Source: Cheilinus undulatus
Lineage: Eukaryota; Chordata; Actinopteri; Labriformes; Labridae
Reading direction: 5' to 3'
DNA: 64,000 nt
NCBI RefSeq assembly: GCF_018320785.1
Contig: NC_054886.1
Span: 33,906,110 to 33,970,109, forward strand
The notes beneath the pieces were generated by a model that was given only the letters and a program-made list of their open reading frames with translations, searched no databases and was not told where the DNA came from. Position numbers and translations under genes: made by a program. Position 1 is the first letter of the stretch. Each line of letters begins with the position of its first letter. This document shows positions 20,839 through 61,190 of this stretch, piece by piece.

Positions 20839-20839
20839 A

Positions 20840-24171: not shown

Positions 24172-24173
24172 GC

Positions 24174-24206
<33 letters not shown>

Positions 24207-24242
24207 GGATAGACAGACAGACAGACGAACAGATGGATAGAT
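24172..24242. repeat. GATA/GACA tetranucleotide microsatellite
   Basis: Mixed GATA, GACA and related units over about 70 nt. Confidence 0.9.
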
Positions 24243-24930: not shown

Positions 24931-26050
24931 AGGGCTGTCAATAGATTAAAATTTTTAATCGCGATTAATCTCACAAATTCCATAGTTAACTCGCGATTAA
25001 TCACAAATTAATCGCACTTTTTTGTCTATTCTAAATGTACCTTACAGTACTATTTCTCAAGGTTTAAATACCCTTATCAACACAGGTGGACAAAAATGCT
25101 TTCTTTATGCAAATGTTTGTTCATGTCAACATCCCAAAACAACAACAGATAAAGTCCAGAAAATTCTCTAGTCTGAGCTCAAAGATACTGAACGCTGCAA
25201 AAATATGCTGAGAGCATAACATGGTAAACTAAAGCCACAACAGATGGAGATACTGACCTTAATGTAACATTACTGAATAATACCACAATGTAGAGTCAAA
25301 CTTTAGACTTCTAGAAGTTAACTCCTCTGTTCTCAGCAGCTGAACACCAAACAACAGATTTCATCATCACACATGGACATAAAGAAGTCAAGTCTCTGCT
25401 GAGAGCTCAGCAGTAAGGCACAGACACATCTAATGGTGTTTCACTGTTCTGATGTGAGTAAGGTGGACACATCTGCCCTGCTCAAGAGAAAAAGCAAGTC
25501 ATTACTTAAAAAATGTCTGCTATTATTTCTCATATTTTTACTTTCAAACTAAAAAATTTAGTCCAAATGTAAAATAAATGCTGACAGTAAGAAATGACTG
25601 AGAAATTTTAAGGTGTAGTAAGAGGACTTAACCATCTCTTCATTCTTCAGATCATAGAAGAGCTACAGATTTAATCTAAAATCATTTTTTTCTTCCTAAA
25701 TAAAGGAGAGCCACAGTCTAATAATGCTTTCAGCTTCTATTCTGATACTCTACAGAGCTCATTCACTAACCTCTGCTCTCCTGTCACACACCAGCCTCTG
25801 CTGCTCTGTCTCCTCCTCCTCCTCATGATGCAGCTGTACATTCACCAGCATCAGACAATCTCCTACAGCGACTGCAGAGTCTTTGACAGTTTTGCAGCAT
25901 CTTGATTGACTGTTATTTAAATTTGGCGTTTATTCACAGTTCCAGTCGATCGTTTTAGTAAGTTTCGTTTTTTTTCTGAATACTTTTACTTTCAAGCAGG
26001 AGCTGCGTGGGGATGAGAGCGGACCTTTAGGAGACGTGATCAGACCAGTC
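24931..26050. mobile_element. hAT-like element end with ATCGCGATTAATC motif; extent uncertain
   Basis: It opens AGGGCTGTCAATAGATT and continues with AATCGCGATTAATCTCA and AACTCGCGATTAATCACA, a start seen in many fish hAT-type elements. A related, more diverged piece is at about 33960-34435. The right end was not found, so the end given is only where the composition changes. Confidence 0.4.
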
Positions 26051-26440
26051 AACAGTCAATAGCGCAGCTGTGGTGCCGGTTCATGGCAGATATAATAGCC
26101 TGAATAAAAGAATAAATCAGACTGGCCCAAAAGTGCGTCGGCACACCGGGAAATGCCTGGTATGCCAAATTGCGAGTCCATCCCTGCAGAGTTGTCTGAG
26201 TGTCTCCATTGTAAACAAATCCAGCATGACCAGGGGGGCAGCTCTCTGCATTAGTGGTGTGCATGGCCAGTGAGTGGTGCACGCTATATAAGACTCTACG
26301 AACTTTCTGTAACTCCGTTCATGTCGACAGTAGGAGAAAATAACTTCAGTCTTATCTGACATGATCTGAAAGCTGAACCTGTCATTCAGAAGTCTCTGTC
26401 CTTTATTCATTTCTGCTCGCTTGTACCGCATCACTACGGC

Positions 26441-26991
26441 ACAGCTTCCTGGTCTGGCAAATGTATTAGACCAACCTAACCCTAACCAAAATAAGGTTTA
26501 TGCCACAGCTGCCCTAAATTAACAGCATTTGTAATTACCAAAATCATTTTTATGTTTCTGCAATGGTTAATACACCAATATGTAGAAGCTCTTTAACCCA
26601 AATTATATTTTTAATGCTGAAATATAATTATTGTTGTTATCCATGAATTTTCAAATTTACTGATTCACAAAAAACCCCTGAAAAAATAGTAAAGCACATT
26701 AATATTTCTTGATTAATATGTCAAATTATAGTTATTTACTTGCATTCCTGAACAGAAAAATGAGTTTTAGTGGTTGAATGTTATGCTTGATTCATTTCTG
26801 ACTTCTCAGAGAAGCCCAGTGAGCCGGCTCAAATTTGGGTGAATTCAGTTTGAAATTCCTCATTCCTGTTCAAAATGGTAAAACGTGGAGAGCTGACTGA
26901 AAATGAAAGAGTACACATTAAAGCACTTCATGATGCTGGATGGTCTTTGAGACAAACATGATAGGTGGTCCAATACATTTGTTCAGCACTG
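26441..26991 (+). mobile_element. Tc1/mariner-like MITE with transposase N-terminus, copy 2
   Basis: It is inverted relative to 16889-17430 and ends CATTTGTTCAGCACTGTA. At about 26876 an ATG opens [18 protein letters not shown], then [11 protein letters not shown], a helix-turn-helix-like start. The reading stops soon after. The left terminal repeat is diverged. Confidence 0.65.
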
Positions 26992-27248
26992 TACATCTAT
27001 TTTTATAGGTTACAACTGGTTTGGAAAAAGTCAAAATAGCTAAAATTTAGTTTATGTTATAATACTCTCCTGAGAAGTCATGAACAAACTCTTGGGTATC
27101 TATTCTGCAAATTTGTGTTTTGTTTGTTTTTTTTTTACTCAGTAAAGATGTTTCAATTTTTTTTGTCTTGTTATGACTGTTTTTGGCCAATGGGACATTA
27201 TTTAAATGTAAAAGGATTTTCCAGTAGTTTTGAAGTTGGGTTGTCTAA

Positions 27249-27988
27249 AGGCCGACTCAGACTACATGAATTCAGCCAGGTTTAAGCTCGACTGCGACGT
27301 CGCAGCTCGTCGTCAAAACTCTGGCCTGATTTTGAGAGTCGGGGACGACAAACCGTCTTGTAGTGTTGCATAATTAACGACGCGCCCAAGACTCCTTTCG
27401 ATTCCTCACGACCACGATTCAACAAGACTAGCATGTCAGAATTTTTCACATATCGTCGTCTAGTTTGACACCCTGACCTGACGTTAACGACTGATTTCTG
27501 ACGTCTAATAACAGGAGAACATTTGCTCATTATCTTTGCATCATCATTTACTAGATTTACCACTTTTATCCCCTTCTATTCCCTAAAACTAATGTGTAAA
27601 TTTTATTTTATTTTATTTACATTATCACATGCAAACCTTAAGTTCTATCTGAAGGAGAGCCAGTCCATATTGTCCTCCTCTTGATACATCCATACTTATT
27701 ATCCATAATCCAATCCATAAATGTGTCTTGTTTTATGAGCAAAAGAGCGCTACAATCACACAGAGTTTCTGTTGCAGAGTGATTGACACTCTTTGGCCCG
27801 CCCCCCGGCAACCTGTAAACTCGCGCTCAGTCGTGGAGACAGTGATGATGTCAGCATACACTGAGCAGCCCGGACCACTCTCATAGTGTGGCCAGGCTGT
27901 CAGCCAAGACGGGACAAGATTTTGGTCGCTTAGTCTGACATGGTGCCATCATGAACGACCAAAAGAATTGCGTAGTCTGAGCCGGCCT
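27249..27988. mobile_element. PIF/Harbinger-type MITE
   Basis: The terminal inverted repeats are AGGCCGACTCAGACTAC and GTAGTCTGAGCCGGCCT (one mismatch). They are flanked by TAA on both sides, matching the TWA target of PIF/Harbinger. Length 740 bp; no transposase. Confidence 0.75.
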
Positions 27989-29067
27989 TAAGGTGCCTGG
28001 TGTTGGTAGTGCCATAAGCCTCCAGTGGTTTTAGAGAGCATCGCGTCTGGGGAAGCTAGACGTTATAGCGCTTCACACAAGTACAGCTGCTCTGCATGAT
28101 TTACCACTTTATGATCCCATCCCACCTTTTTCTCTGTCCAATTCTGCAACTGTTGAGACATTGTACTGCTTATAAACCCTTTCAACCAAATTTTTTGGCC
28201 TGATTTTGCCAGGTTTAACCTGTTTCTGCCCTCTTCCAGGTAATGTTGCCCATGTTGACCCATTTTTGTCTCTCTTTCACCACTTTTTACACCAATTCTT
28301 GCCCATTTTAACCACATTTCTGTGTTTGTTTTGTTGTTTTGTTGATTATGTCGAGATAGGCAGTGATGAGCAGACAGCAGACGAGTTAGTGAGCATGTGA
28401 GAGAAGACTGAATTAGAAACTAACTAGTCCTCCTGATTCAACTTACGCTAGTGCTTCATTTTGTGTTCTCCAGGTGGGCATCGTTGAATGTGGCACTAAA
28501 ACCAAAAGATTGTCACTGTTGATGCAAGACTTTGCATTATCATCTGCTGTGAAATCATCTGTAACTTGATGAGCAAAAGAGGAAGCTGGCATGTTCAAAC
28601 CGTTGCAGGTGGCTATAAACTCTGGTATTATTGCACGCTAATGTGGGTGAACTTCCTTATTAAGCTGGCACAGTGAAAGGATGTGACATTATTCAGTGGT
28701 TCAAAGACACTGTGAATAAAGCAAACACTCCTCTAAGTGAAAAGTAGACCAAGCTTGTTGACTCGTGATTTTGTTCACTCATTATAGTGTTTCACTTCTG
28801 CCAACCGTAACCCTTATTTTAGATATCTACTAATTATTACAGTAAATTTCTGTAAAACAGCTCAAATGTTAAGTCATTCTAAGGCTATTCCAATGTTGAA
28901 TGTTTGAGGGATGGATTTAACAGCTGCAGACATTTAAAGCCAAAGGATACTCGTAACATCACATCTTCTTTTCCTCCTTTTCTGAATTCAGTGATCTTTC
29001 CAGGGCCATACAGGATGCTTTGGGGGGCCTGATATGGCCCCTGGGCTGTCAGTTGATGATCAGTACC

Positions 29068-29365
29068 ATAAAATGTAATGATAAAAGACTGTCTGTTAAT
29101 AAAAATAGAAAATAAATTTGCTCTTCGTTCTATTGAGCATGCTGTGAGGGTGAGTTTCTGCCTGTGATTATCACTTCCCCCTTTATCTGCAGCCCTAAAG
29201 TCTGCTGTCGCTCAGCTACGGCTCAGTTAAAGGCAGGATTGCTCAGTATTGCCACAGTGAATTAAAAAAAAAAAAAAAGGAAAGGCCATGTGCCCTGGAG
29301 AAATACCCATCAGTGTCCCATGACTGAATGGAGCTCTGTCTAATGTTTTGTAATCTGTTGAATGA
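29068..29365 (+). repeat. Direct repeat copy 2 (with 2232-2520)
   Basis: It shares GGAAAGGCCATGTGCCC, TGTCCCATGACTGAATGGAG and CTCTGTCTAATGTTTTGTAA-like blocks with 2232-2520, in the same orientation. It follows a short hAT-like remnant (about 28985-29060) that matches the reverse of 39740-39830. Confidence 0.7.
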
Positions 29366-29664
29366 TAAGAAAAATTAACAATGCAGACACTCAAATACAC
29401 ACAGACGAGTTTGTTTTTCCCTCATCACTTATTTCAGACCTCATTCTCCTGACAAGTCCACACAGAGGTCTTTATTATGATATAAAACCAGGAAATAAAG
29501 ATCTGACTAGATCCAGTATGGGGAACATGATCTTTGGATTAACTGACAAACCGCTGAACCAGCAGAAAAGACATAAAACATTGAGGCCATCATCAGCAAG
29601 TCTTCACTAGATAATGAAAGTGAAATAAACTATTTATATATATTAGAGCAATGTTCGACCACAA

Positions 29665-29990
29665 TTCCTAAAAAGTTGGGGAGCTGTGTAAAAAGTAAAT
29701 AAATCCAGTGATCATCAAATCTCATAAACCCACATAAACATCATATCAGATGTTGAAACTGAGATATTTAACCATTTCATGAAAATTTCAGCTCATTCTG
29801 AATCTGACGGCAGCAACACATCTCAAAAAAGTAGGGACAAGGTCATGTTTACCATTGTGTAGCATCCCCTCTTCCTTTAACAACAATCTGTAAACATCTG
29901 GGAGGTTGGGAGACTAGTTGATGGAGTTTTGGGAGAGGAATGTTGTCCCATTCTTGTCTGATTCTAGCCGCTTAACAGTCCTAGGTCTTC
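29665..29990. mobile_element. MITE related to 15285-17765
   Basis: The blocks AACACATCTCAAAAAAGTAG, GATGTTGAAACTGAGA and GGGAGAGGAATGTTGTCCCA tie it to the composite element in the tlr2 intron. Only one side is present. Confidence 0.5.
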
Positions 29991-29999
29991 TTTGCTGGA

Positions 30000-31080
30000 T
30001 TGTTCGTTTTCTGATGCTCCAAATGTTCGTGTTGTAGTACTCAAGAACGGTCTCGGTCTCGAACCTGGAGTCCCTGCTTTCTACTAACCTGACACACCAG
30101 ATGGATTTGTTTCACACATCCATCTGGGAAAGCTTCTTTAGGGAACGTTTGAGAAAAGGCAGAGGCTTCGAAAAAAAACTCAGAGTGTGATTGGATGAAT
30201 GTTCCATCTGTTAATCTCTACGGGCCAATCAGAGCAACAAAACATGTACCATAGCTGCTATCGAGCTGCACGCTACAAGAAATGTGGTCAAGTTCTGATA
30301 AAACTGGTGCTTCAGCAGCATCCACGCTAATCTCTTCCTCCATAACTGCACCAGCTCTTGCTGCTGCTTGTTTACTTAACGACTCTGCCGTGCCTGAAAG
30401 TACTGCTCCTCATCTCTGATTGGTCCTGTCACTTTCTAACCGGGCCAAAACGGTTCAGATGGGAGCTTAACAGGATGGATTCACCAGTGAGAAACAAGGA
30501 AATGGGCGTATCCATCTGCTTTGCAAAGTTAGCTTTCTACAGCTGAGAGGCAGAATAGATACAGACGGAGAAATGTCACAGATTTTGAGTGTCGGACGAA
30601 AATGAAGTTACATTTTAGTCTAGTTTTAGTCATCTCCATGAACACTAAACTGACTTTTTGTCAGCTTCAGTCATCACAGATCTATTTCTGTTAGTCTAGT
30701 TTTTGTCAGGGAAAAAAAAAAGGCTGCCAGTGAACATTTTTAGTCATAGTTTTAGTCGATGAAATGAACACTGCTGACATTTCATGGTAAAACAAGTTTT
30801 TAATCTCCCTTATTCCAGGGATCTGGACTAGCCTGGCTTTCTCTTCACTTTCCTCTGCTTCTTTACCACTATGCACATAGAAGTGCTGTCAGCTTACTGT
30901 GAAGTCTACACCAAATTAGTCCACATGCAGCAGAAAATAATTCCACACTTTCAAATTATGTCAGAATATTTGCAACTTTGTCTTTCCTACAGGCCAGTTT
31001 TTTTCCAGCAAGCTGCCAATCTGCACTTTAAAGAAGTTGGTGTGTTGCAATGCTGAAAAATGTAAGGACACAAATGAGGC
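30000..31080. other. Intergenic, probable repeat DNA without coding content
   Basis: It contains a CATCCATCTGGGAAAGC/GGCGTATCCATCTGC pair around 30.1-30.5 kb that may be ends of an element. A TTTTAGTC-rich patch at 30600-30780 resembles the hAT-like MITE at 60087-60575. No gene seen. Confidence 0.4.
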
Positions 31081-32400
31081 AACCGTGTTCAGATAAATGC
31101 CTTCAAGAAATCCCCAAGAGATTTAACTTCCTGTCAAAACAGAAAGTGAGGTTGTTAGTGGTCGGAGGTGTTGATGTATGAACGACAGCTGTTTTATGAT
31201 CTTAAACGCGCCATGCTTGAGCCATGGCTGCTTATTTGGAACCCCATCTAGGGTCTTTCTCCATGCAGTCACAGTGACTTTGCAGAATTTGTAACTCTAA
31301 CTTCCAGAGAAGTTGTGTGGCCTTTAATAACCTAATGTAATGTAATCTGTCTAAACAGAGGTGTGGCTCAGTGTCATATGGCTGCCCTAAAATAACTCTA
31401 TCTCATTCTTATTATCATGACCTTAAAATACTTCATATGTTAAGGTGTTATGCACTGTTTTTGAGCCAGCTGGCTTCAGTTACTCGTTGAAATGTTACTA
31501 ATGTAATCAATAATCAGAGGGCAGTGGCTGAAGTGGATTCTTCTTAATTTTAGAGAGTGATACTTGAACGTTACACTCGTTTTTATTCGATTTTTCGGCT
31601 GATGCTGTGTGTGCTGGATGTATAATGTGGGTAGGATATAATAAAGTCATTCTCAAGTGTTCAAAAACACACAGTGACCCATATCATCACAATATGAAAC
31701 CATGAAATAAGAACAGCTTTAAAAGGTACAAAACACACAAGATAGTCTGGGAACCCGGAGCACAAAAAGACAGCACACACAATGAAGAAAAAGGACCATA
31801 TCAAAATGATGTAACCCAAACCTTATCTTGATTATACTGAAATGAGGAAGATAATCCACAGGGGCTTGTTTCCTGATGTACAATAAATTAATGACTGAGA
31901 GACAAAGCAGCACCCGTCTCTGCAGGTCGTCTGAGTTACACCAGGATAAAACATGTCATTGTCGGCGTAACATTTAACCAAAGAGCTGCTGTGTGGAGAA
32001 ATGAAAGAAAACAATGGCTCAGATGAAGAATCAGTGTCGGTTCTTCAGCATAAAAGGCAGACGAGTAGCAGAGGCTAGCACACCTGCCTGAACACAGCAG
32101 CTGAACAAGAAACAGGTGAGTCTGCTTTCTTAGTGCTTTTTTGAACGTTTTCTTTGGTGTCGACTCTTAGAGATCATCACTTATTTGGAATGGGTTCCTC
32201 CTAGGAAGAATAAAGAGATTATTTAATGCAGAGAGCAAATACAAATGTGGGTATGTTTACCATATTTTTGCACATTGCCATCATGTAGAGATTGCACAAT
32301 GGACAATTACAGCACCTACTTCAATGCCAATTTTAAAGACTTACATAACTGACAGAAATCATAGTTAACCTATTACTGGCAATGATGAACTTTTATAATT
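31080..32400 (+). repeat. Left arm of inverted duplication (lectin promoter region)
   Basis: This stretch aligns with the reverse complement of about 60655-61970. Shared blocks include the upstream region with GAGGTGTGGCTCAGTGTCAT, the promoter, the leader exon with donor, and the intron start ending near the stretch CTATTACTGGCAATGATGAA. The arms flank the lectin gene and fgb, so they are about 28 kb apart. Confidence 0.8.
32050..32055 (+). promoter_or_regulatory. TATA-like box of the thyroglobulin-1/lectin gene
   Basis: An ATAAAA box lies in CAGCATAAAAGGCAG about 60 nt before a donor site (AAACAG|GTGAGT at 32115/32116), which would close a short noncoding first exon. The same box, leader and donor are preserved in the inverted copy at about 61.1 kb, which supports this being a real core promoter. 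Confidence 0.5.
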
Positions 32401-32649
32401 TCAATCTGAGTTTTTATCTCTAACTCAAGGGTGTAGCTACGGATTTAGGGCCCCTAGAAAGAATATCACACCAGGCCCCCCTTAACTGGCTCGCCAAGCA
32501 ACAAATGTTCTCATTTTTACAGATATCACTGCATTTTAATGCATTTTTGAACATTAATTTCCCCATTTATGAGCAATATTTTCACTAAATTTACTTTTTA
32601 AGGGAGGATTAGGTACCCCCAGTATTGTATTTTACTCTATTTCACTGAT

Positions 32650-33450
32650 AATCAGTGTGTAGCTCTAGAGCCACATGTGGCTCTTTTATGTCTTAATTTG
32701 AAATATTATTGCCCCAGAAAAACTTAAAAAAGGGAAACTTTGACAGAAATGACCCATTGCAAGTCACATAAAACAGTTTGCTAACCCACACTTACACAGA
32801 AGGCTTTAATTGTCAAATTTTAAATTAGTCTGTATATTTTAATTGCCCTTTTTGCATTTTTTGCCACTTTTAATCATTTTTTTACTGCTTTAGGTCCACC
32901 TTTGTCACTCCTTTCTAACCAGTGTTTGACTCTTTTGTCCTGCTTTTTACTATTTGCAATTTTTTTTTCCCATTTTTGCCCCTTTTCACCCATTTAAGCT
33001 GCCTTTTGACATTAAATGCCTCTTTTTATCCCAAATTTTTGCCACTCTTTGCTGTTATTTGCCCACTCTCTCACCTTTTGCTGCCTTTTGCCCAGTTCAG
33101 TAACTTTCCACTCATTTTTAGTCGTGTTTTCACCACTTTTTGACCATTTTTGCCACCTGTTACACAGTTTTTGTCACTTCTCATCCACATTTTGCCACTT
33201 TCTGTCCTTATTCACCACGTTTTCTCCCTCATTTTTATCACTTTTCACCCAGTATTTGGCTCTATATGATAATTTTGCCCCTTTTCACCTTTTTTTTTTT
33301 TGCTGCTTTTTGACCATTTTGCCCCCTTTAACGTATCTTTATTGCCATTTTAATGCATCTTTGCAACTTTTCACCACTTAGATTGTAGCTCTTGCAGAGG
33401 TACTTTTCAACATTTTGGCTCTTTGCTCAAGCAGGGTTGAGTAACCATGC
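32650..33450. mobile_element. hAT-type element with array, opposite orientation to 10744-12062
   Basis: AGAGCCACATGTGGCTCTTTTATGTCTTAATT at the left and GGGTTGAGTAACCATG at the right are the reverse of the ends of 10744-12062. The middle (32840-33380) is the complementary array (TTTTGCCACTTTT units). It lies in intron 1 of the lectin gene; the termini are eroded. Confidence 0.65.
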
Positions 33451-33624
33451 TGTATTTGGTAAAAATTTCAGTCTGCTGACCAATTTATTTAGTCACTTTT
33501 GATTTGATAATGACACTAAATGCTAAGAAAAGTAAATAAAAACACACTTTTCATTGCAGGCTTCTCAAGGGCCCCATCCTACTGTGGGCCTGGGTAATCA
33601 GTACCCCTTTCCCCCCCGTGCTAC

Positions 33625-33790
33625 ACCCCTGCTCTAACTAAAGGTGTCCCACAAGGATCAGTTAAGGGGCCCTGTTTTATTTAGTAAATAAATAATGTAA
33701 TGTTGTTTACTCTTTAGCAGACTGTGATTTCATCTTTATGCAGATGACGTTATTTTATACTGCTCTGTTTATTCTGCAGGGTCTGAGGGT
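33625..33790 (+). mobile_element. LINE reverse-transcriptase fragment
   Basis: The translation shows GVPQGSV followed by a gap and FHLYADDVILYCSV, the B and C motifs of a non-LTR reverse transcriptase (L2/Rex1-like). The fragment is about 160 nt, cut on both sides, with a frame change between the motifs. Confidence 0.65.
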
Positions 33791-34544
33791 CCATTTTTCT
33801 TATTTGTTATCAGTATTTGCAAACAAACAAATAAGGGAAAATAAACAAAAAAACAAACAAAATAAAAGTAAAGAACTCAGTGCAATTTGGGTTTATAAAG
33901 TCTTGTAGTCTCTACTCTAAATTTTGTGGGTTTTTTAAAATTCAACCCGACTCATTAAAATACCTGGATGTGGATTAATTTAGATTAATCATGATTAAAT
34001 CTCAGTCATTTTTAATCTATATTAATCACGTTTCATTTTGCATAAGCAAACAGACTCAATCTCTGACAAACGTATGCTTCGCGTTAATGTGGTATTTTAA
34101 GCTGGAAGTGCTTCGGTGAAAAGAAAACTCCTTCCTGCAGAATGTTCATAATACTTTATGTTGGTTGACTGTTCCGTCTTGTTTTTTTCGCACTCAAATT
34201 TCCCATCGAGAGGGCCAACGTGCTGTTCAGCATCTTCCATAGCGAGTTGGTTGGTCACTACCGGATCAACGGCCCATTTGCGCGGCGGCATGCTCGACGG
34301 TAACCCTACTTGGACAAACTGCCAGAAATGCGTTGCCAGAGATGTTTCAGGGATTTTGAGTCAATCTGCGCTGTAGATGGGTTAACTGCGTTAAAATTTT
34401 TAATCAGATTAATCATGATGATGGATTAATCCGCATTTATGTGTCAATTTGAAAGAGGACATTTATCAGCAAGGTCTGTTCAACAGTGTCAACATCCATT
34501 CATAATTTGGTTAAAATTAAAACAGAGGTGGAAGGTTTTTAATC

Positions 34545-35720
34545 TTTTTAATTTTTATTTTATTGGTTTATTTGGCAGGGACAGATGCGGTAAACATAAA
34601 GAACTGGACAGCAATCTTCCATGTACTACACTGCAGCATTTGTTGCAAATGCTAATTTCCAATGCCTGTCCCTTAGAGGGAATCAAATAAAACATACAGG
34701 AAGCATAACTGCATAAGTCTCCATTCGATTTACTCCATATATTCAAGATGTGCATTTGTACAATACATAAGATCTATATTCACAGATGTGCTAACATACA
34801 TTTATACATTTGAAAATTAAGGAGAAAAAAATCAAGTAATTGAGAAGTATATTTATAAGCATCTAAGATAGATCCAGGATAAAAGCACCATCTCAGCTAA
34901 CACCACCTCTACACATGAGTCACTTTAAGACATTTATTTAATTTTGATTTGAAGTTTTGGTAAATTTACTTTAAGGCTGGAAGGAAGTTTATTCCATATG
35001 TTCGCTCCCTCAATAGCAAAGGAAGTCTGACCTAAAGAGGTACTTCAAAATCAGTCCCTTGCAGCTGTATTCCTAGTTAAAGATCCAACTTCCTGTAAAG
35101 GTTTCACCATGTCAGATAGGGCCTGAGGAAATGTCAACATTTATGTTGGAGATTGGCATTTACAAATACAATGTAGTGGTCAAAACTTAGCATGTTTAGA
35201 TTCCTCAGAGCATGACAGTGGTGATATCTTACAGGCTGTTTATTTAGTAGTCAGTCTCAGTTGAGAAACCAGCATCAAATCTAGATATTTGACTTTTAAG
35301 ACCTGATTTATTGACTTACCGTTAATTTTTACATGTAGTGTAGTCGATCTGGACCAGACGAGAAGCAAACTGTTTTGTTAACGTTCAGAGTCAGACAGGA
35401 GTATTCAAACCAACATAATATTGATTTCAGACGTGCTGACAGTCCGATTAGAAACCACATTGGCTGTTTTTTCAAAGGCATATATGACAGTGTCGTCTGC
35501 ATACATTTGGAGATTGGCCCCTCGGCATGATTCAGGGAGTATTTTTACAGTCCTGTGCCTCGTTAACATCATTTCTAACTTTGAGGGCAGCTGTAACGGT
35601 GAAGTGCTGCTCTCTAAAACCAGACTGAAAAGAAGAAAAAATATTACTTGTGTCTAAAAATTCCTTAGTTGATCACTGACCATTCTTTCAAACACTTCAA
35701 CTAGGACACACAATTTAGAA
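34545..35720 (-). mobile_element. L2/Rex1-like LINE 3' fragment
   Basis: The minus strand reads ANLQMYADDTVIYAFEKTAN (YADD catalytic motif), then SCLTLNVNKTVC and, after breaks, HCHALRNLNMLSFDH. A 3' UTR follows, ending CTGCCAAATAAACCAATAAA. The frame is broken. It lies in intron 1 of the lectin gene. Confidence 0.65.
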
Positions 35721-36006
35721 ATCAGCCAATAATCGTGAACATTGAAGGGTTCACGCTCTTTTAGTAAGAGAAGAACAAAAGCAAACAAAAGACGTGTTTA
35801 GATTCAATGGAGAAACAAAAGAAAATGAGACTTTTCCTCAACATACTAGTTTTGTTTCAGATTATATGGCTTATAAAAAAACAAGCTTCGATAATACAAA
35901 TTACTTCAGAACTTCAGCAAATTTAATAGCTGAAAAAAGTTTCTGACTAATTTTCCGTGTTTTCGAAAGCCTCACCATCTTCAGCCTCATCCCGCCCTCC
36001 GTCATC

Positions 36007-38266
36007 ATGAAGATCTTGGGGGTGTGTTTGATGCTTTGCAGCCTCCTGGTGCTGAACCAAGCCCATCCCACCAACTACACCACCATGCCCAGGGGCTCGA
36101 AAGACCACATGGGCCCCTGCACGTACATGGTATACAAAAGTCGCCCCGGGGACTACGTCCCACAGTGTGACGACGACGGGTACTTTCTCCCCACGCAGTG
36201 CTGTAAAGAGACCGGGTACTGCTGGTGCGTGGACATCTACACCGGACGGATGGAAGACAATACCAAGGCCCTGACAGCAGAATTTCACTACCAGTGTGGT
36301 GAGTACAATAAAGCCTTTTTTAAAATTATATAAACCCATTTACTTAAAACAGAATTAACTATGATGTTAACAGCATGGATGGATGCACAGAACTCTTAGG
36401 AAAGTAATGTCAGACTTTATAGCTAGGCCATGATGTGCACTAATATCAGAATGCCAGAAATAAAACAGAAGAAACTGAAACAACCTTAAAAGAAAAAGAT
36501 GAAAAAAGGAAAGTTTATTGTTGAAAAAAAAATGGGTGAAAAGTGGCAGAAATGATAAAAAAGTGTCATGAATCGGATGAAGACGGCTCAAAGTGACAAA
36601 AAAATGGCAAGATATGGGAAGACACCTGTCAAAAAAGGGTTAAATGCATCAAAAACTTGCAAAAATTGACAAAAGAACAAGAAGCAGCTGCAGTGGGGAA
36701 AAAGTTGCAGTAAAATGTGACAGGAATGGGTGAAAAAGAGAAAAAAACAGGATACAAGTGTCAAAAACGTTGACAAAAGGTGACAGGAAAAAGTAAAAAG
36801 TGGCAAAAATGAGCAAAAAGTGGCCAAAGGCGATGCAAAAATGGGTGAAAAGTGGCAAAAAAAAGCTAAACCTACCATAAATAGGAAGGAGATGGCTCAG
36901 AGTGACCAAAAATTGCAAGAAATTGGCAGAAACCAGTCAAAAAAACAAACAAACAAGCAAGCAAACAAACAAACAAACAAAAAAACTAAAACCAAATGCA
37001 GCAAAACCATGCGAAAATTGACAAAAGGACAAAAAGCAGCTACAGTGGGGAAAAAAGTTAAAGTCAAATGTGACAGAAATGGTTGAAAAAGGGGAAAAAA
37101 AATGGATACAAGTACAAAAAAGTTGTAGCAAAGTGGCAAAAAATGGGTGCAAAGTGGCAACAATGGGAAAAAAATTACAAAAGGGGGCTAAAGTAGGCAC
37201 GATATTGCAATAAGTGGCAAGAAATGTGCAGAAAGCAGTTGAAATTGAACAAAACAGCAAAATGGGTTATATGCAGCAAAACTTTTCCTAAATGGTCAAA
37301 ATAGATGAAAAGAAACTACAGTAGGAAAAAAGATGAAAAAAAGGTTGCATAAATGGTTGAGAAAAGGAAAACACAGGATACAAGTGAGAAAAATGTCGAA
37401 CAGTGGCCAAAAATGGGTGAAAAGTGGCAAAAATGGTTTAAAGTGCCATGGATAGGATGAAGACGGCTAAAAATGACAAATAATGGCAAAAAATGGGAAC
37501 ACACCAGTCAATAAAGAGGTAAATCCAGCAAAACCTTGCAAATATTGACAAAAAGACAAAAAGCAGCTACAGTGGGTTGCAGTAAAATGTAACAGAAATT
37601 GGTGAAAAAGGGACAAAACAGGATACAAGTACAAAAAAGTTCAAGAAAAGTGGCAAAAAATAGGCAGAAAGTGGCAAAAATGGGAAAAAGCAGCAAAAAA
37701 AGGGCAAAAAAATTGCAAAAATATGTTGTAGAAATGGGCAAAAAAGTTGCAAAAAGTGTCATAAAGTGGCAAGAAATGGGCAAAAACCAGTGAAAAACCC
37801 AACAAAACAAAACAAACAAGCTCTAGTAGGAAAAGTTGAAAAGGAATGTTGCAGAAATGGTTAGAAAGAGAAAGAACAGGATACAAGTGTCAGAAACGTT
37901 GACAAAAGGTAACAAGAAAACGTGAAAAGTGGCAACAATGGAGAAAAGTAGCAAAAATTGGCAAAAAAATCAACAAAGGCGGCTAAAGTAGGCGAAAAAT
38001 GCAAAAATGTGTTGCAAAAATGAGCTAAAAAGTTGCAAGAAGTGTTAAAAAAGGGGCAGAATTGGGTGAAAAGGGCAAGAAAAGGATGGAAGTGCCAAAA
38101 ACATTCAAAAAAGTGGCAACAAATGGGCAGACAGTGGCTAAAGTAGGCAAGAAGTTGCAAATAGATTTTGCAAAAATGGGCCAAAAGTGACAAAAACAAA
38201 ATAACAAACAAACAAACAAAAAAAAAACCCCAAACAAACAGAAAAAGGTGGAAATGGTTGAAAGGT

Positions 38267-38297
<31 letters not shown>

Positions 38298-41200
38298 CCC
38301 AGGAGAAATTGGTTTAAAGAGGTAAAAAGATTTAGCAATAATGGATGGAAAACTTCCATCATCAATAAATCAACACTGAGGAGTGTTGATTTATTGGCAG
38401 TTTAAGGCAGTGGATGGAACAGATTCACCCATTCACGTCCAATGCATTCCAACCACACAGTTTGGGCTGTGTACCTGCTGTTTGCTGCCACCTGGTGGCC
38501 GTCTTAACATTGCAGTCAACTGTCAATTCTGCAAGCCAGAAACAACTGAAGAAACAACAGTCCAGATCAATTCATGGAGCAGTTAAAAGTAAAATCGGTA
38601 TTATACAGTAAAGGGCTGCAATAAAACAACAGAAATAAAACTCTTAAACATTACCACCGGTCGTTGAGGACTACGTTTTAAAGCCAGCTCTGTAGTTTTA
38701 TTGATTTGTTTGCCTTATAGGCAAGGACTACTACTGCCCTCAGTACTGGACGTATTCCCCGTACGACCATCGCTGTTACATGTTCGTCAACAGCCCGAAG
38801 ACGTGGATTGAAGCTGAGGTGAGGTTTCACTGAGCCGCTGAAAATCCTTCAGTTTTGTTGGTTTTGTAAATGAATCGTCCTTCCTTTCATTTCCAGATTT
38901 ACTGCTTGTTTGAGGGAGGAAACCTGGCATCAGTCCACAGTTCTATGTGTTATCACGGCATCCAGGAACTGACCAAATATGAATACGATTTCCCTTTGAC
39001 CTGGCTCGGAGGACAAGATTTTGCCAAGGTATGGAAGGCTTTTACAGGAGTAAAGCATAATTTTCTTTGATTTTGGGGTAGTAATTCACTTATATATACT
39101 TACTTTGTCTTTCTATCCATAGAACTGTGTTTGGCTCTGGACTGATGGCAGCAAGTTTGACTATGGCAACTGGTACATGGACCCCAGCTACTACTACATG
39201 GACAGAGAGGAGCACTGCCTGGTGATGAATTATGGACGTAAGTTCCACATGTAGAAAATCACATGCATTCATTATCAATATGGACCTATTGCACTAATAT
39301 AACCCTTTTTGTCACAGCATACTGGAAGGCTGAAGAATAAGTTGTATTTCGTTGACATTAATTCTGAAGCCACTTAAAGCTTAGAAGCACAGATGGGTCA
39401 AAACGACCTGCATTAGAATCAGTGTGTTCATGTGCATTCTTTAAAGATATATTCTGGGATTTTTAATGCATTTATTCAGGTAGGAGGACAGTGGATAGGG
39501 TTGGAAACAGGGTTAATAGAGTGCGGGAGAATGTACGGGAAAGGAGCCACGGGCTGGACTTGAACCCTAACCGTGCACATGGGACGAGACCTAACCACTA
39601 GGCCAGTGGTTCCCAACCTGAGAGGTTGCCATAGACCTCAGGCAGGGTGCAGGACGTGGTCTGCTCTGATGTCAAAGATAGATTTGCATATATTTTACTA
39701 AAATCATGAGAAGAAATGTAGTATATGACAGAGTACAGGGCAATGATCATCAACTGGCGGCCTGGGAGCCATATCAGGCACCCCAAAGCTTTCTGTACGG
39801 CCCCAGAAGGTCATTAAAGAAGATGATGTTGGCTAGTTAAATCCACCCAAAAATAATAGACATTTAAATAGTTTTAGAATGGCTCAACATTTGATTGTTC
39901 TTTATAGAAATTTACTTGCCAGCCATTATTAGTAAAAAAGAAAAAAAAAGAAAGAAAAGTTAAAGTGGCAGAAATGTAGCAAAAATGGACAAATAAAGTG
40001 GCGAAAGGGGGTTAAAGAGTGGCAAAATGGGTTGTAGAGTGGCACAAAGGGAAAAAAATGACAGGAAACGTAGTGAAAAGAGGTTGAAATGTTGAAACAA
40101 AAAAGAGGGAAAAGAAGTATCAAAAATGGGTCAAAAGTGGCAAAAAAAAATGCAAGAAAGTAATTTTAATGGGATAAAAAGTTGCAAAAATAGATAAAAG
40201 AGCAGCTTAAAGGGGATAACATGCAGGAAAAGTGGTTTAAAAGGGGCTAAAAAATGACAAAAATTAGGTTAAACTATCAAAAAGGGACAGAAATATAGCA
40301 AAAATAGCCTGGCACAGTAGTGAAAATGTGTTAAAGGGAGGCACACAGGGGCAGTAATTAGGAAGAAAGTTGCAAAAAAGTGATTAGAGAGTAGTATAAT
40401 GGGTGAAAAGTGGCAAAAAATGGTTTAAAAGTGGCAAAAAAGTAAGAAAAGGGGGTTAGAAAGTGGCAAAAATAGAGGAAAAGTGGCCAAAATTGATAAA
40501 AGAATGGCATGAAGGAGACGAAACATGCAGGAAAAGAAGTTCAAAAGGCGTTAAAGAATGTCATAAAACTGGTTAAAGAGGCAAAAAAGTATCAGATGAG
40601 TTAATACTGGTGCTATGTGGGCAGTGCTGTCTTCTTGTGGCCTGCTGCACAATAATATGTTAATCAGACCAAAATATTCATATAATTTTTGTCTATGTAC
40701 AAATGTATGTTTGTCAAATGTACTTGATGACCCCTGGTATAGGGGCTACCCTAAAAGATAAAAATAAATAAATGAATAACAGGATCTGTCCATTTTTGAA
40801 AAATGAAATGTGAATTTTTTTTTTTTTTTTAGACAATAAAGTTTTAAATTTACAAGAAACTAAAGTCAGAATGTTGGTATTAGAAACATTTTACATTCAT
40901 GAGAAAAAAAAGAAACTTAAAATTCCTGAGATGAGAAAGTTGTAAATTTAACCAATATAAACTCAGACTTTAAAGTTTTTCATGTAAAAATTTCACGACA
41001 GTGTAAAGTCAAAAATTTACCAGAAAATAAACTGAAAAAGTGGCAACATTTTTGGCTTCATAATCTCAAAATTACCAAGTTTTCGTTCATATATTTATGA
41101 CTTTCAAAGTAGAATACTTTTTTATGTAAATGTACAAGTTTTTACACTAGAGAATTTTGAGTTTAATTTTGTAAAGAAAAGATGTTGTCATTGTTTTAAT

Positions 41201-42057
41201 TTTCTAAAGGGGCTTTTAAACAGTACTGTCATAACTGACAGTTATACATAGATATTTTAGCATTTTTGGGGCATATCATTTTTTAGACATGAGTACAGGG
41301 GGCCCCAAGGAAAAGACTGGGAAGCACTGCACAAGGCCATCTGTGCCATAGTATGTGCATTTTTAATCATTTTGGTGAATAGTTACCACTAGTTTTGGAT
41401 TCAGTATAATATTTTGGTCGACATCAGATGATTTCACTTTTGGAAAATTGTGTTTTCCTCAAAAATGTAATAGCTGTGGACAGGAAGCTGATAGCCATGG
41501 CTGTCACTGCGGCAAAGTCTAGTTGCACTGGAAGCTGGTATATATAATAGCTGCCACTGGGGTAGCGATTAGCTTTCCTTCACAGTGATGTTTTTGCATT
41601 CTCAGTTATAAGAATGACGTGTTTGCAAACACAGAAAAAAATCCCTGCAGTTACTGATGTGTCCTGTTGAGGTTTCTCTGAAATCAAATCAACCTTCATA
41701 TGAGAAAACTCCAACCTCACTGCAGAATTACATATTATCAATGAATAAATCACTTTAATTTCAGCTGTGTTCTGCTTCCTGGCTTTAAAACCTTTTCACT
41801 GAATGAAGGAGAGACATGCTGGCAGAACTCTTAAAATAATCTGAATGCTTCAAATATTCAGCTGACAGGGGGATGTCTCTGTCTCTGGCCCGATTAGTAA
41901 GACCTGTGTGCAAAAATCTGACCAGCTTTTAAAGACTTTTCCTGTTTTTTCTCTCCTCTCTCTTACAGTTGAGCTGAAGTGGCACTACGCTAACTGCAGT
42001 GACACCCACCCTTTTGTTTGTGTCAAGAATGACTGGAAGAACATATTGCTTAATTAG
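36007..42057 (+). CDS. Secreted thyroglobulin type-1 plus C-type lectin-like domain protein
   Basis: Coding exons are 36007-36298, 38721-38818, 38897-39028, 39123-39237 and 41969-42057; all have GT-AG junctions and matching phases, giving 241 residues. A noncoding exon ending at 32115 probably precedes them. Residues 1-19 are a signal peptide (MKILGVCLMLCSLLVLNQA). Residues 38-97 form a thyroglobulin type-1 domain with YVPQCDDDGYFLPTQC and the hallmark CWCVD; cysteines are at 38, 54, 65, 72, 74 and 97, with an extra one at 66. Residues 103-236 form a long-form C-type lectin-like domain: C..YW..Y..RCY, then WIEAE, GGNLASVHS, WLGG, WTDG and PFVCV. The EPN/QPD and WND calcium/sugar motifs are absent (MDPS and WHYANC instead), so classical calcium-dependent sugar binding is not expected. 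Thyroglobulin type-1 domains in other proteins can inhibit cysteine proteases; a role here is inference. A poly(A) signal lies at 42309-42314. I do not recognise a named gene with this architecture. Confidence 0.88.
36530..38345. repeat. Long GGCAAAAATGGG-type array in lectin intron 2
   Basis: About 1.8 kb of diverged units near GTGGCAAAAATGGGTGAAAA, with interspersed longer periods around AAAAAACAGGATACAAGTG and AAAAGCAGCTACAGTGGG that recur about every 300 nt. All A/G-rich on the plus strand. No open frame here is credible. Confidence 0.8.
39445..41352 (-). mobile_element. tRNA-derived SINE split by a hAT-like insertion
   Basis: Reversed, 39445-39603 carries the SINE tail, body (CCAACCCTATCCACTGTCC) and B box (GGGTTCAAGTCC). 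The missing head (GGCACAGATGGCCTTGTGG reversed) continues at 41330-41352 beyond the inserted element. It lies in the last intron of the lectin gene. Confidence 0.7.
39604..41329. mobile_element. hAT-type element inserted in a SINE
   Basis: The termini are CAGTGGTTCCCAACCTG and GACTGGGAAGCACTG. The 8-bp duplication is CACTAGGC/CACAAGGC, taken from the SINE head. It contains a GGCAAAAATGGGT-type array at 39955-40600. No transposase. Confidence 0.75.
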
Positions 42058-42308: not shown

Positions 42309-43735
42309 AATAAAAAATGCACAATAATATGGAGATCTATGTGAATGTTTGTGTTTTAAAATGTTTTATCATGGATGGCTTCATATGTGTGCTGTGGTGG
42401 ACATTTCAATGAACATATTCAGGGAAAAAAGATGAAAACAAAAGAAAAGACAATGAAATAAAAGAGAAAAATAAAAGAAAAAACAAGAAAATATACAACA
42501 GAAGAGAGAAATGACAAGATAAGAAAAGAAAACAAAAGAAGCTGTAAAAGAAAGCAAGAAAAGTTTCAAAGAAAAGAAAGCAAGAAATGTTTCAAAGCAA
42601 AAAATGCAAGAAAAGACAAAAAAGTGAAATAAAAGGCAAGATGAGATAAGAGAAGAAATGAAAAAAGAGGAGAGTAAAAAGGAATAGAAATGACAATAAA
42701 AACAAGACAAGAAAAAATTGACAACTAAAGAAAGATATTCAAATAAATATAAAAGACCAAGAAAACAAAAGAAAAGAAATGAAGATATAAATTTAAAAGA
42801 AAGTAAAAGAAAAGAAAGAAAGAACAGAAAAAGACAAGAATATGAAGGAACAAAACAGAAATAAATAGCAAGAGAAGAAATGAAAAGAAAAAAGCTTTAA
42901 AAGTAAATAAAGCAAGAAAAGTTTAAAAGTAAAGAAACCCATTAAAGAAAAAAAAAGTTCAAGGGAAGAAAACAAAGAGAAGACAAAAACAGACACGACA
43001 AAAAAAAAAAAAAAAAAAAAAAAAAAGACAAGAAAAGAAAACACAGAAACGACAAAAATGAAACAAAGAAAAGAGAAAACAAGAAAACAAAAAAGTAAAG
43101 AACAAAAACTAGAAAAAGAGAGGAAAATAAAACAAAGAAAAGACAAGAAAATAAAAAATAACAAAACAGATATAAATGACAAGAAAAAAGAAACGAAAGG
43201 TAAGCTTTAACAAAAATAAAGCAAGAAAAGGCAAAAAGGTCAACTTAAAGATGAGACAAGAAGAGAAAAAAAAAAACAATAGAAAAGACAAGAAAACAAA
43301 AAAGAAATGAAAAGAAAGAAAGGAAAAGATGGTTGTACAAGAAAAATAAGAAATGAAAGGAAAAGAAAAGACAGAAAAACACAAAAAAGACAAGAAATAA
43401 ATGCAACAAAATAGAAATAAATGACGAAAGAGGAAAAGAAAAGAGAGAGAAGTTTTAAATAAGAATCAAGCCAGAAAACAGGCAAAGACAAAACACGATA
43501 AATAAAAGATAAGTTAATTCAAGAGAAGAAAAGAAAAAATAACAGAGAAGACGAGAAAAAAAAACAAGAACAGAAATGATAAGAAATTAAAAACAGACTG
43601 ATATACAAGAGAAAAAAAGACAAAACAAGAAAACAAAAGAAAAGTAAAGCACTGAAAAGAATAGACAAGCAAAAGACAGGAAAAGAAAAAGAAAAACAGG
43701 AAAAAAATTACAAGCAACCAATCAATGCTACATTT
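42309..43735 (+). repeat. Homopurine block, copy 1 of tandem duplication
   Basis: It starts at the lectin gene poly(A) site (CACAATAATATGGAGATCT) and runs through about 1.3 kb of nearly pure A/G (AAAAGAAAAGACAAG units). It ends CAATGCTACATTTTACACAA. Copy 2 is 44970-45855. Leu/Phe/Ser-rich minus-strand frames here are composition artefacts. Confidence 0.8.
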
Positions 43736-52500: not shown

Positions 52501-55434
52501 GGTTTCCCCACCCGTATATAAAGGGGTCACTTGGGCAAATGTCTAGGCAGACACCAGAAGATAGTAAACATGTGGGTAATATCCTCAGATTAATGGAGAT
52601 GAAAGCTTAACCATGATGCAAAAACTTTGCCTTGGCTGCAGGGTGTTCTGGACAAGATCAGGTTGAAGATCCAGAACCTTGAGAAAGCCATCCAGACCCA
52701 GAGGGAGGAGTGCAAGGAGCCGTGCACCACCAAATGTCCCATACCAGTGGTGTCTGGTGAGTGTAATATTGTAGCTCTGGTAAACAAGAGCACATCAGGA
52801 ACTTACTGGGTTCAGTATTGACCGAGACACTGATTCTGCAAGTACTGAGGTTTTTGCTAATTATATCATTGTGTCATTCAGGTAAGGAGTGTGAGGACAT
52901 CTTCCGTCGGGGAGGAAGAGACTCACAGATGTACATGATCCAGCCTGATGCTTTCTACCCGGCATACAAGGTCTACTGTGATCAGACCACCCAGAATGGA
53001 GGTGAGAATTTACAACATTTAAAATCATTTTCCACACAGATAAAGAGATATTTTAGGTAGGAAAGACCCATTTATATGTGCAAATCTGTTTTCTTTTTTT
53101 GTCCAGGATGGCTTCTCCTCCAGAACAGGCTTGATGGAAGTGTTGACTTTGGTCGCCGCTGGGATGATTACCGACGTGGTTTTGGCAACATTGCCTTCGA
53201 TACTGGCAAGGGTCACTGTAACATTCCTGGTACGACTTTTAGACTACAGCAGATGGGAAGAGGATCATGTTAAAAGGACATTTAATAGGAAAACCATATT
53301 TAGCTCTAGTTGACCGGTTCTTACTTTATCGTCCTGTAACAGGTGAATACTGGTTGGGTAACGACCGCATCAGTCAGGTGACTAAAATGGGCCCCACTGA
53401 AGTTCTCATTGAGATGGAGGATTGGACAGGAGCTAAGGTGGGTCCTAGGGAATCCCAATGGCACATTCAGCTGATTGACTAGTGCCAACCCTTCTCATGA
53501 TCCAGCAAGTCAAAGACATTGAGCATTTCTGTTCACGATTATACTGAGAAAAGACAGCATACTTTGATGTTGCAATGACAAAGTCCATTTGCAATGTGTT
53601 AAATGTTTTGGTGTTCCTCTCCTACACTTAGGTCCACGCTAAGTATCAACAGTTCACAGTTCAAGCAGAGACCACCAACTACATCCTGGCTGTCGATGGC
53701 TACTCTGGTAATGCTGGAAACGGTTTCCTGGAAGGATCCTTGGAGCTCTTTGGTGAAAACCGCACCATGACCATTCACAATGGCATGATGTTCAGCACCT
53801 ACGACAGAGACAATGACAACTGGTAGGTGTCCTGTTTGTTGGGAAGTTCATACCATCTCACTAGCTGTGTTTCCATTACCCTTCAAAAAACTCAAATATT
53901 GCAAAAAAGTTTTCATGCTCTCATTAGGAGGTTTTTCAGATGCTTCGACACAGAAATATATCGCAAAAGTGGAATGAAAACGCTTTTTATGCACTTACAA
54001 GTTACGGGACGTGACGTACACGCGGTACGTGTGGACAAAAGAGGAGATGAGACTTTTCTAATCATCATACTTACACCCTTATACGTGGCTTTTACAGTGC
54101 GTATGGACCTTGCCCCTGAATTACCATCCGTTGCCTTCGTCTTTTGTTCAAAATGATCAAGGCAACCGCCATAGATGTAACCAAAACTGTACCAACACGC
54201 AACAGGTTTTTAACGTCAAGCTTCCTTGCAGCGGATTCACCCGAGATGAGATTTTACGAGAATTGCAAGGCCTATGCCCAAAACTCCCTTCAATGGAAAT
54301 GCATTCAAAGCGCAATTGTACTTAATCGAAATTTAAGAAATATCGCTTTTATTTTGTGAAAAACTGTAATGGAAACCCAGCTTTTGACAAAAAAAACAAA
54401 CGTCTCATTTAGTGGACAAGAAAACAGAACCAGCTAAAGCCCATAAAGCCTCTGTCTGAAGGGATAAATATTACCAAGACATGAATAGGCAAACAGCCTT
54501 TCAAAGATAGAATACAATGAACTCAAAAATATCTCCTGATTTAAAGAGCCTATCATGGGTTTATGTAAATGTTAAAACAAAGCCGTACACCAAAGAGCAG
54601 TCAACTGAGAACAAAATGCAACCGTGGGTTGCTTGGAGGATTCTGGAGTTCTGCAGGATCCCTCATTGGCTCATTCAGCTGATATCTGCCCTATATTCTG
54701 GTCTAGAGGCTCCACCTCTGACCTCTTCCCAGGTGATCCTGGAGTGAGGCAGGCTTACCTGTATGGACTAGATAACAGAGAAAGTGTACCTTTAGAGATG
54801 GGGGCATGGGCGTGGTGCAGGCCTGGGTGATGCCAGAGCAGAACAGGGTCAAGGTTGATGTGGCGAAATGCCAAACCGGCCCACCCATACTTGACTTGAC
54901 CTGACAACCAGCTGTGTGCAAAACTTCACGTAGTTTTAGGCTAGTTTAAGAATTACAATGGCAGAAACAGTCAGGGGTTTCATGCTCACCCAACTGAAAA
55001 TGGTGACAGCAAAAGGTGCGGTTATGGTGCCAATTGTTTGGCGTTCATTGGTCAATAAGTTTGCATGGTTCCTCCTGGCAACCAAACCATAAATGCATCT
55101 GGACTTGTGTATAGAAGGGCTGTTGTGAGTCACTGGTACTTGACTTTTACTGTATCCACTGTTTATTAAAAAACTTCTTTGTCCCTCTTTCTCTGAAAAC
55201 AGGATTCCAGGTGATCCCACCAAACAGTGCGCCAGAGAAGATGGAGGTGGCTGGTGGTACAACCGCTGTCACTCGGCCAATCCCAACGGTCGATACTACA
55301 TCGGCGGCGCCTACAATGCTCATATGGCCAAGCACGGCACAGATGACGGCGTGGTGTGGATGAACTGGAAGGGAAGCTGGTATTCGCTCAAGGCCATCAG
55401 CATGAAGATGCGGCCTTACTTCCCCCCAAACTAA
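46508..55434 (+). CDS. fgb: Fibrinogen beta chain, 13 coding exons
   Basis: Secreted plasma clotting protein; it pairs with alpha and gamma chains and is cut by thrombin to expose the B knob. Coding exons are 46508-46591, 46769-46801, 46901-46998, 48421-48520, 49976-50044, 51298-51412, 51674-51780, 52642-52756, 52882-53001, 53107-53229, 53343-53437, 53632-53822 and 55203-55434. All junctions are GT-AG and in phase, giving 493 residues (human 491). Residues 1-16 are a signal peptide. Fibrinopeptide B runs to VDAR, followed by the B knob GHRP at 46-49. Disulfide-ring cysteines (GGC, CPTGC) and a coiled coil follow. From about residue 241 comes the fibrinogen C-terminal globe, with [47 protein letters not shown] and [10 protein letters not shown]. 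The protein ends RPYFPPN. A poly(A) signal lies at 55483-55488. A 33-nt exon encodes [11 protein letters not shown] inside the fibrinopeptide. The gene is intact. Confidence 0.97.
47288..48271. mobile_element. hAT-type element with array, in fgb intron 3
   Basis: The termini are CAGGTGTTTTTAAAGTGTGG and CTCACACTGAAATCACTG, with a perfect 8-bp duplication CTTTAGAC on both sides. Inside is a TTTTGCCACTTTT-type array (47540-48060) whose right border GGTTGAGTAACACTG resembles the end of 10744-12062, suggesting nesting. No transposase. Confidence 0.8.
48760..49270. repeat. Diverged AAATTCC/AAATTTCA repeat in fgb intron 4
   Basis: Irregular repeats of AAATTTCAGGAAAATTC and ATTCCCTAAA-like units make up about 500 nt of AT-rich DNA. 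No period is clear by eye. Confidence 0.5.
52127..52457. mobile_element. Palindromic MITE in fgb intron 7
   Basis: The left end GTGCCATATTATGTAATAAC plus GCCACATTATGTAATAACC is mirrored at the right by TTACATAATGCGGCGTTATT plus ACATAATGTGCTGCTAC, giving an inverted repeat of about 45 nt. The middle holds two CCTAACCCTAACTGCTTA-like blocks. Family not assigned. Confidence 0.65.
53863..54382. mobile_element. MITE with GGGTTTCCATTAC ends, in fgb intron 12
   Basis: The termini AGCTGTGTTTCCATTAC and GTAATGGAAACCCAGCT are inverted with one mismatch. No coding content. The target duplication is too short to fix the superfamily. Confidence 0.65.
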
Positions 55435-59578: not shown

Positions 59579-61190
59579 TGTACATTTATGAGAAGAAAAA
59601 AAACTTCTTTTTTGCCTGCCCATGTGAGCCCGTTTGCTCACTGATGGGCATGTGGATGGATTTGTAGGGCCTGACTTGGTTAAGCGCCAGGAAGCTGCAA
59701 AGCTTCAAACATACCCCAAAGATCTTAATGCTGGCGAAGCATGCGATGAGGTTGAAGATGGTGAGGCTTTTGAAAATGCAAAAAAAAAAGTTAGACACTT
59801 TTTTCAGCTATTTAATTTTCTTCCAACGTTTTAAAACTGATTGGCATCATAAAAACTAGGTTTCCTCTAACCCATATAAACGTAGAATGAAAAGTTGGTA
59901 AATTAGTGTTTGGTAGATTTTTTCTTTGCTGCGCTTTGTGACAATAAATCTTATACTGCTGGAAAGCCTGTTTATTTCCCTTTTAAATGGTGCCACATTT
60001 GTAGGGAACATGCATTTGAGGGATGAGCAGCAGAGCTGAGTATGTGGTTGTACTCATGGAAAATTGGCCAAATCTTCTCTAGTAATCAGTGTTAATTTTG
60101 ACAGCACTTTTTAATTTAGTTTAAGTTAAAGTCTTTTGCCAAAAATATCTTTCTTTTTTTCATAATTTAGTCATCTAAATTGTTTTATTTTTAGTCTAGT
60201 TTTAGTTGACGAAACTTCCCAACATTTTAGTCGACGAAATTACAGTAAATTTAGTCGACAGATTGGATCTCTCCCCAACTTACCCCGCCACCACGCAGCA
60301 AAAGCAGTTGTGATTGGATCTCCCCCATATCTCATCCCACCTTTCCACACAGCCAAAGTAGCTGTGATTGGATATACGCCTAACTTGCCCCAAATCAGGT
60401 CTGATTGGATAAAGTCTCTGCAAAACATTTTCGTCTCGTTTTTATTTGTTGACTGAAGTGTCAGTTAATTTTGTTTTAGTTTTTGTCCATGTGCACTTGT
60501 TTTTATTAGTTACTGTCTCGTTTTAGTCAGGGGAAAAAACTATAACAAAAATAATCAGTCAACAAAATATCACTGCTACCAATGCTGAACAGCTAATGCG
60601 AATATAAAGTAAGAAAAATGGGCCCTCAGAACTAGACCATTCCAATTGCTTGAAATGATTAAAGTTCATCATTGGCAGTAATAGGTTAACTATGATTTCT
60701 GTCAGTTATGTCTTTAAAATTGGCATCGAAGTAGGTGTTTTAATTGTCCATTGAGAAATAACAAGGGACAGGAGATGGAAACTAGCAAAAGTTATGATCT
60801 CTATATGTGAAACAAAGGTTACTTTTAGCTTGTTTGTAACAGGCTTAAGTTGCACTATGTAATTTGAATTGTCCCTATCAAATAAACTTAATCAATAAAT
60901 AAAAATCTCTACATGATGGCAATGTGCAAAAATATGGTAAACATACCCACATTTGTATTTGCTCTCTGCATTAAATAATCTCTCTGTCTGCCTAGGAAGA
61001 ATCCATTCCATATAAGTGATGATCTCTACGAGTCGGCACCAATATCTCAGAGAAAATGTTCGAAAAAGAATAAAGAAAGCAGACTCACCTGTCTCTTGTT
61101 CAGCTGCTGTGTTCAGGCAGGTGTGCTAGCCTCTGCTACTCGTCTGCCTTTTATGCTGAAGAACCGACACTGATTCTTCATCTGAGCCAT
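59579..61190 (-). pseudogene. Inverted partial copy of the thyroglobulin-1/lectin locus
   Basis: On the minus strand the promoter and leader exon (about 61190-61090, with the same TATA-like box and GTGAGT donor) match 32010-32120. The signal-peptide exon near 59830-59610 matches the start of the lectin gene: IKIFGVCLKLCSFLALNQ against MKILGVCLMLCSLLVLNQ. The start codon is ATT instead of ATG, and similarity stops at the ACATGGGC before the thyroglobulin-1 cysteines. No thyroglobulin or lectin exon follows. A hAT-like MITE (60087-60575) sits in the intron. It is therefore a broken partial duplicate, although a donor-like CA|GTGAGC within the exon leaves open a transcribed noncoding or chimeric role. 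Confidence 0.75.
60087..60575. mobile_element. hAT-like MITE with TTTTAGTCGACGAAA motifs
   Basis: It starts CAGTGTTAATTTTGACAG and ends AACAAAATATCACTG. It is flanked by CTAGTAAT/CTACCAAT (6 of 8). The repeated TTTTAGTCGACGAAAT motifs are common in a fish repeat family. It sits inside the inverted lectin fragment. Confidence 0.6.

Follow-up and report, generated by a model that had tools for sequence, protein, structure and literature searches.

A gene between tlr2 and fgb of Cheilinus undulatus that very likely encodes a thyroglobulin type-1 domain and a C-type lectin-like domain in a single protein

The window, meaning the whole 64,000-nt stretch of Cheilinus undulatus DNA that was analysed, shows the gene order tlr2 (minus strand), a gene with a thyroglobulin type-1 (Tg1) domain and a C-type lectin-like domain (CTLD) on the plus strand, fgb (plus strand) and then fga (minus strand). 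On the tlr2 side, an ORF at 7651-8118 (minus strand) carries a TIR domain that is nearest to TLR2 among PDB chains, and a leucine-rich piece follows on the same strand at 8162-8902; weaker leucine-rich pieces, under the Pfam cut-off, lie at 18235-18519 and 20554-20931 (minus strand). On the other side, the plus-strand ORFs at 52767-53057 and 55144-55431 encode fibrinogen C-terminal pieces, the second of which is nearest to fibrinogen beta, and a minus-strand ORF at 62401-62811 has no Pfam match and eight weak PDB matches, all of them to fibrinogen/fibrin alpha chains (best E 1.6e-5). Given these identities of the neighbouring ORFs, the Tg1-CTLD gene sits between tlr2 and fgb, where the initial annotation had put it. 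Elsewhere in the window, a piece of a mobile-element reverse transcriptase is found at 3968-4564 (minus strand; RVT_1, 3e-21), while Rfam gave no matches across the 64,000 nt; a scan for bacterial-type promoters was set aside as having no bearing on a fish gene.

The model of the Tg1-CTLD gene is real and its components are ordinary. Rejoining the five plus-strand exons from the window yields an in-frame sequence of 726 nt, which encodes 241 residues before its stop codon, and all four introns, of 2422, 78, 94 and 2731 nt, run from GT to AG. Exon 1 (36007..36298) encodes the leader and the entire Tg1 domain (Cys38-Cys97) and ends in phase 1; exon 2 (38721..38818) opens the CTLD and carries Cys103 and Cys116, the cysteine pair of the long form; exon 3 (38897..39028) holds Cys133 (C1) and continues up to the WIGL-like WLGG region; exon 4 (39123..39237) includes the site of the lost EPN/QPD motif and Cys206 (C2); and exon 5 (41969..42057) has WHY replacing WND, Cys222, Cys230 and the stop codon. 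A TATA-like box (TATAAAA, 35872..35878, plus strand), 135 nt 5' of the ATG, and a poly(A) signal (AATAAA, 42309..42314, plus strand), 252 nt 3' of the stop codon, are consensus matches only. Pfam recognizes Thyroglobulin_1 at residues 45-87 (46.1 bits, cut-off 20.6, E 3.4e-12) and Lectin_C at residues 123-232 (42.3 bits, cut-off 22.6, E 1.4e-10), and two ordered domains above cut-off on one open model rule out chance ORFs. The N-terminus is hydrophobic, residues 3-17 giving the highest 15-residue Kyte-Doolittle mean (2.5), and all later 19-residue stretches lie at or below 0.62 on the same scale; the protein is probably secreted. Its predicted mature form (after residue 19) contains 15 cysteines, an odd count made up of seven in the Tg1 domain and eight in the CTLD, and is rich in tyrosine (25 Tyr, 11.3% of the sequence beyond residue 19). 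The five-exon chain, the probable signal peptide of a small secreted protein, the Tg1 domain and the long-form CTLD had all been proposed in the initial annotation and are recovered here, the long form by its cysteine pair ahead of Cys133.

Introns 1 and 4 (36500-38290 and 39950-40600) contain degenerate gtggcaaaaatggg-type repeats, similar ones occur at about 9.6-11.9 kb (9600-11900), and a long A-rich and GA-rich simple-repeat tract lies directly 3' of the gene (42430-43700). The 5' flank and leader codons of the gene (35862-36091) also have a decayed, inverted counterpart, newly noticed here, which was aligned on the minus strand at 59645..59879, between fgb and fga. It is identical to the gene at 110 of 144 aligned bases ahead of the ATG and at 69 of 84 from the ATG onward, it has ATT where the gene has its ATG start codon, and the alignment stops at residue 28-29, short of the first Tg1 cysteine. 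With gaps excluded, the three codon positions are identical at 26/29, 21/27 and 22/28 sites, which gives no clear pattern. A looser alignment spans nearly all of the 1.1 kb tested (score 353, as compared with a maximum of 213 in 20 shuffles), its score including the core and hence being uninformative on the extent of the copy. A full paralogue in the window was also considered and dismissed: among the tblastn matches listed, E values below 6 were reached only by the exons and by the decayed 5' copy.

That a single gene places both domains in one protein, as first annotated, is on this sequence evidence highly probable. The phase 1 end of exon 1 comes right after the final Tg1 cysteine, exon 2 requires phase 1, and the junction is consensus as well as phase-matched, which argues against the scenario of two products, namely a Tg1-only protein made by read-through and poly(A) addition in intron 1, and lectin exons served by a separate, unseen leader. 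Read-through of exon 1 (36299-36333) reaches a stop after 108 residues and an AATAAA is found at 36307, giving a possible Tg1-only short isoform; this AATAAA begins upstream of the read-through stop codon, and for that reason we treat the isoform as a minor rival. A crude scan covering single-exon leaders looked for a separate leader among ATG frames that begin with hydrophobic residues and have a phase-1 donor: intron 1, for which the true exon 1 passed as a control, yielded two hydrophobic ATG frames, neither with a donor, and the plus strand of 21000-35990, under stricter thresholds than those for intron 1, yielded none. A leader split across two exons would escape such scans and could have evaded these, but with the phase-matched junction the two-product scenario appears quite improbable. 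The decayed copy shows that such sequence can die in this genome, yet in the gene itself the frame, the splice sites and the structural cysteines are all intact, and a pseudogene or dead locus is accordingly the most improbable of the alternatives we considered.

The Tg1 domain has cysteines at positions 38, 54, 65, 72, 74 and 97 with a CWCV core, plus an extra Cys66; the six cysteines, the CWCV and the score above the PF00086 cut-off place it in the Tg1 domain superfamily (type 1A). By total score the leading PDB chain is thyroglobulin, owing to its many repeats, whereas by single-domain score the p41 invariant-chain (CD74) fragment, a thyropin of MEROPS family I31, leads the domains listed with 39.8 bits, as against 36.4 for one saxiphilin domain and 30.0 for the best thyroglobulin repeat listed. 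In a global alignment with p41, 23 of 59 aligned residues are identical, and RPGDYVPQC of the window protein aligns with HPGSFRPKC of p41, before C2. According to the parts of the literature available to us, p41 binds cathepsin L through three loops (PMC7863939, PMC10889554) and is a picomolar inhibitor of cathepsins L and V (PMC7863939), and saxiphilin and a chum salmon egg cysteine protease inhibitor are likewise Tg1 proteins shown to inhibit cysteine proteases (PMC7863939). The same partial text describes Tg1 as an inhibitor motif only "occasionally employed", several Tg1 proteins being without demonstrated inhibition and most not being proven inhibitors (PMC7863939). An excerpt of PMC10889554 describes two conserved residues of loop L1, Gly101 and Pro105, which are four apart and flank Cys103; Gly48 and Pro52 of the window protein have the same spacing, but both precede Cys54, and no equivalence is claimed. 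Of the earlier proposal of a protease inhibitor, the Tg1 domain is supported and is p41-like, while the inhibition, given a motif that serves so only on occasion, is a plausible activity predicted from similarity. An AlphaFold model of exon 1 alone was of low confidence (pLDDT 49.9) and was rejected as evidence. Searches for relatives of exon 1 in viral and prokaryotic contig collections gave 8 and 63 pattern matches, respectively, with none confirmed in either, as expected of collections of viruses and prokaryotes.

The CTLD, whose presence had also been annotated, belongs to its superfamily by the PF00059 score above cut-off and by the C1-C4 cysteines (Cys133, 206, 222 and 230); an NCBIfam polycystin match over residues 102-233, which correspond to the CTLD, scores 18.3 bits, where the cut-off is 1861.4, and was dismissed. 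The comparison with PDB chains covered the best 60 of 155 matches, with domain scores for five chains. The best total scores belong to many-CTLD proteins (PLA2 receptor, IgY receptor, mannose receptor 2), whereas the single-domain leader among the chains listed is type II antifreeze protein with 68.7 bits, ahead of the best IgY-receptor CTLD (54.8) and mannose receptor 2 CTLD2 (50.4). In C-type lectins the Ca/sugar site is formed by an EPN or QPD motif together with WND. The EPN and WND of mannose receptor 2 CTLD2 correspond in the window protein to PSY (or, one residue off, DPS) and WHY, and one acidic residue is retained ahead of Cys206; because both EPN/QPD and WND, the motifs of Ca-dependent sugar binding, are absent, the classical site looks lost, although the domain may still bind protein or serve as a scaffold. 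Of the exon borders within the CTLD, one precedes C1, one follows the WIGL region and one separates C2 from C3, and introns at these positions are described, in the portion of the survey available, for the sea raven antifreeze gene and the Fugu antifreeze-like genes, the pattern being common to groups VII and XII (PMC514892). Antifreeze genes are further reported, in an excerpt of PMC2440524, to have five introns, exons 3, 4 and 5 of the herring and smelt genes being 80, 126 and 109 nt long, near to the 98, 132 and 115 nt of the window gene.

No family with a Tg1-CTLD architecture was found in the open-licence PMC literature among the matches listed, in keeping with the initial annotation, which knew of none. 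Within this literature, PF00086 and PF00059 occur together in two papers, one surveying arthropod inhibitors and one on ctenophores, whose accessible portions report the domains separately; Tg1, C-type lectin and teleost together gave nothing, nor did ladderlectin with thyroglobulin; Tg1, C-type lectin and fish gave five studies, by title on sea anemones (three), a cerianthid and a locust; and other searches gave, among the matches listed, no paper with both thyroglobulin and lectin terms. The word "thyroglobulin" occurs nowhere in the available text, figures excluded, of the Fugu CTLD survey (PMC514892), nor in the available text of a zebrafish perivitelline-fluid study in which C-type lectins are present. 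Orthologues are likely to be already annotated in sequence databases under automatic names.

The best reading of the locus, which we hold tentatively and at somewhat short of an even chance, is a secreted thyropin that arose by exon shuffling and whose CTLD does not bind sugar. In it, an exon encoding the leader and the Tg1 domain and ending in phase 1 would have been placed ahead of the four exons that encode the CTLD in a gene for a soluble, antifreeze-like C-type lectin, apparently taking the place of the 5' exons of that gene; such shuffling is suggested because the best single-domain CTLD match and the intron positions both point to an antifreeze-like gene. The gene would then work, and its presumed product, secreted and of about 26 kDa, could block a cysteine protease of the cathepsin L type, the Tg1 loops entering the active-site cleft like a wedge. 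The CTLD, lacking the classical Ca/sugar site, would stabilise the protein or tether it to a protein partner. We propose a thyropin because p41 is the best single-domain Tg1 match and because PG-x3-P-x-Cys and the length of loop L2 are kept. Either Cys66, within L2, or the longer L3 could spoil inhibition, and the former also favours a different scenario, possible if somewhat doubtful, in which the Tg1 domain has a structural role without inhibition and the work is done by the CTLD, the protein being an antifreeze-like or protein-binding component of serum, mucus or egg. The existence of Tg1 proteins without demonstrated inhibition would fit this scenario, as would the antifreeze-like sequence and intron positions of the CTLD, but among the single domains scored it is a proven inhibitor, p41, that is most similar. 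The idea first put forward, that of a lectin-guided inhibitor delivered to microbes by a Ca-dependent sugar-binding CTLD, could draw on a fold predicted whole and on the acidic residue before Cys206, but with EPN/QPD and WND both gone its lectin-guided part lacks support, and we consider it a quite unlikely account. A more elaborate proposal, also unlikely, is that the protein represents a vertebrate family, so far undescribed, of secreted inhibitors with two heads: the thyropin head would bind cathepsin L and the CTLD head a second protease or a matrix protein, and through the odd fifteenth mature cysteine (Cys66, loop L2) the protein might dimerise covalently or attach itself covalently to a target. 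The type member of MEROPS family I63 is the pappalysin-binding proMBP. CTLDs constitute this inhibitor family in the excerpted text of PMC5673224.

Two old secreted domains would be newly paired at this locus, apparently via a phase-1 join. Should the thyropin reading be true, the protein would represent a novel type of thyropin bearing its own non-sugar CTLD, and if cathepsins are inhibited, fish would have an additional control of extracellular proteolysis; if orthologues share the domain order, the proteins would deserve their own group in the CTLD classification.

Among known systems, we know of no CTLD in p41, in saxiphilin or in the chum salmon egg cysteine protease inhibitor. The p41 fragment shares with the window protein the six ordered Tg1 cysteines, GYCWCV, the PG-x3-P-x-Cys before C2, an equal L2 length and the CWCV after L2; it differs in having Tyr at the position of Cys66 inside L2 and a shorter L3, and, unlike the window protein, it belongs to a much larger protein (PMC7863939, in part). 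Saxiphilin is a Tg1 protein like the window protein, similar at the level of one domain. The mannose receptor family (PLA2 receptor, IgY receptor, MRC2) shows clear CTLD similarity and the top total score; its members are large multi-CTLD receptors, unlike the window protein, and CTLD2 of MRC2 retains EPN and WND. Fish antifreeze-like CTLD genes (type II antifreeze, Fugu AFPL) share the long-form single CTLD and the same intron positions, and the available portions of PMC514892 and PMC2440524 describe no Tg1 domain in any of them; whereas these genes encode CTLD-only secreted proteins, the window gene carries its Tg1 domain in exon 1.
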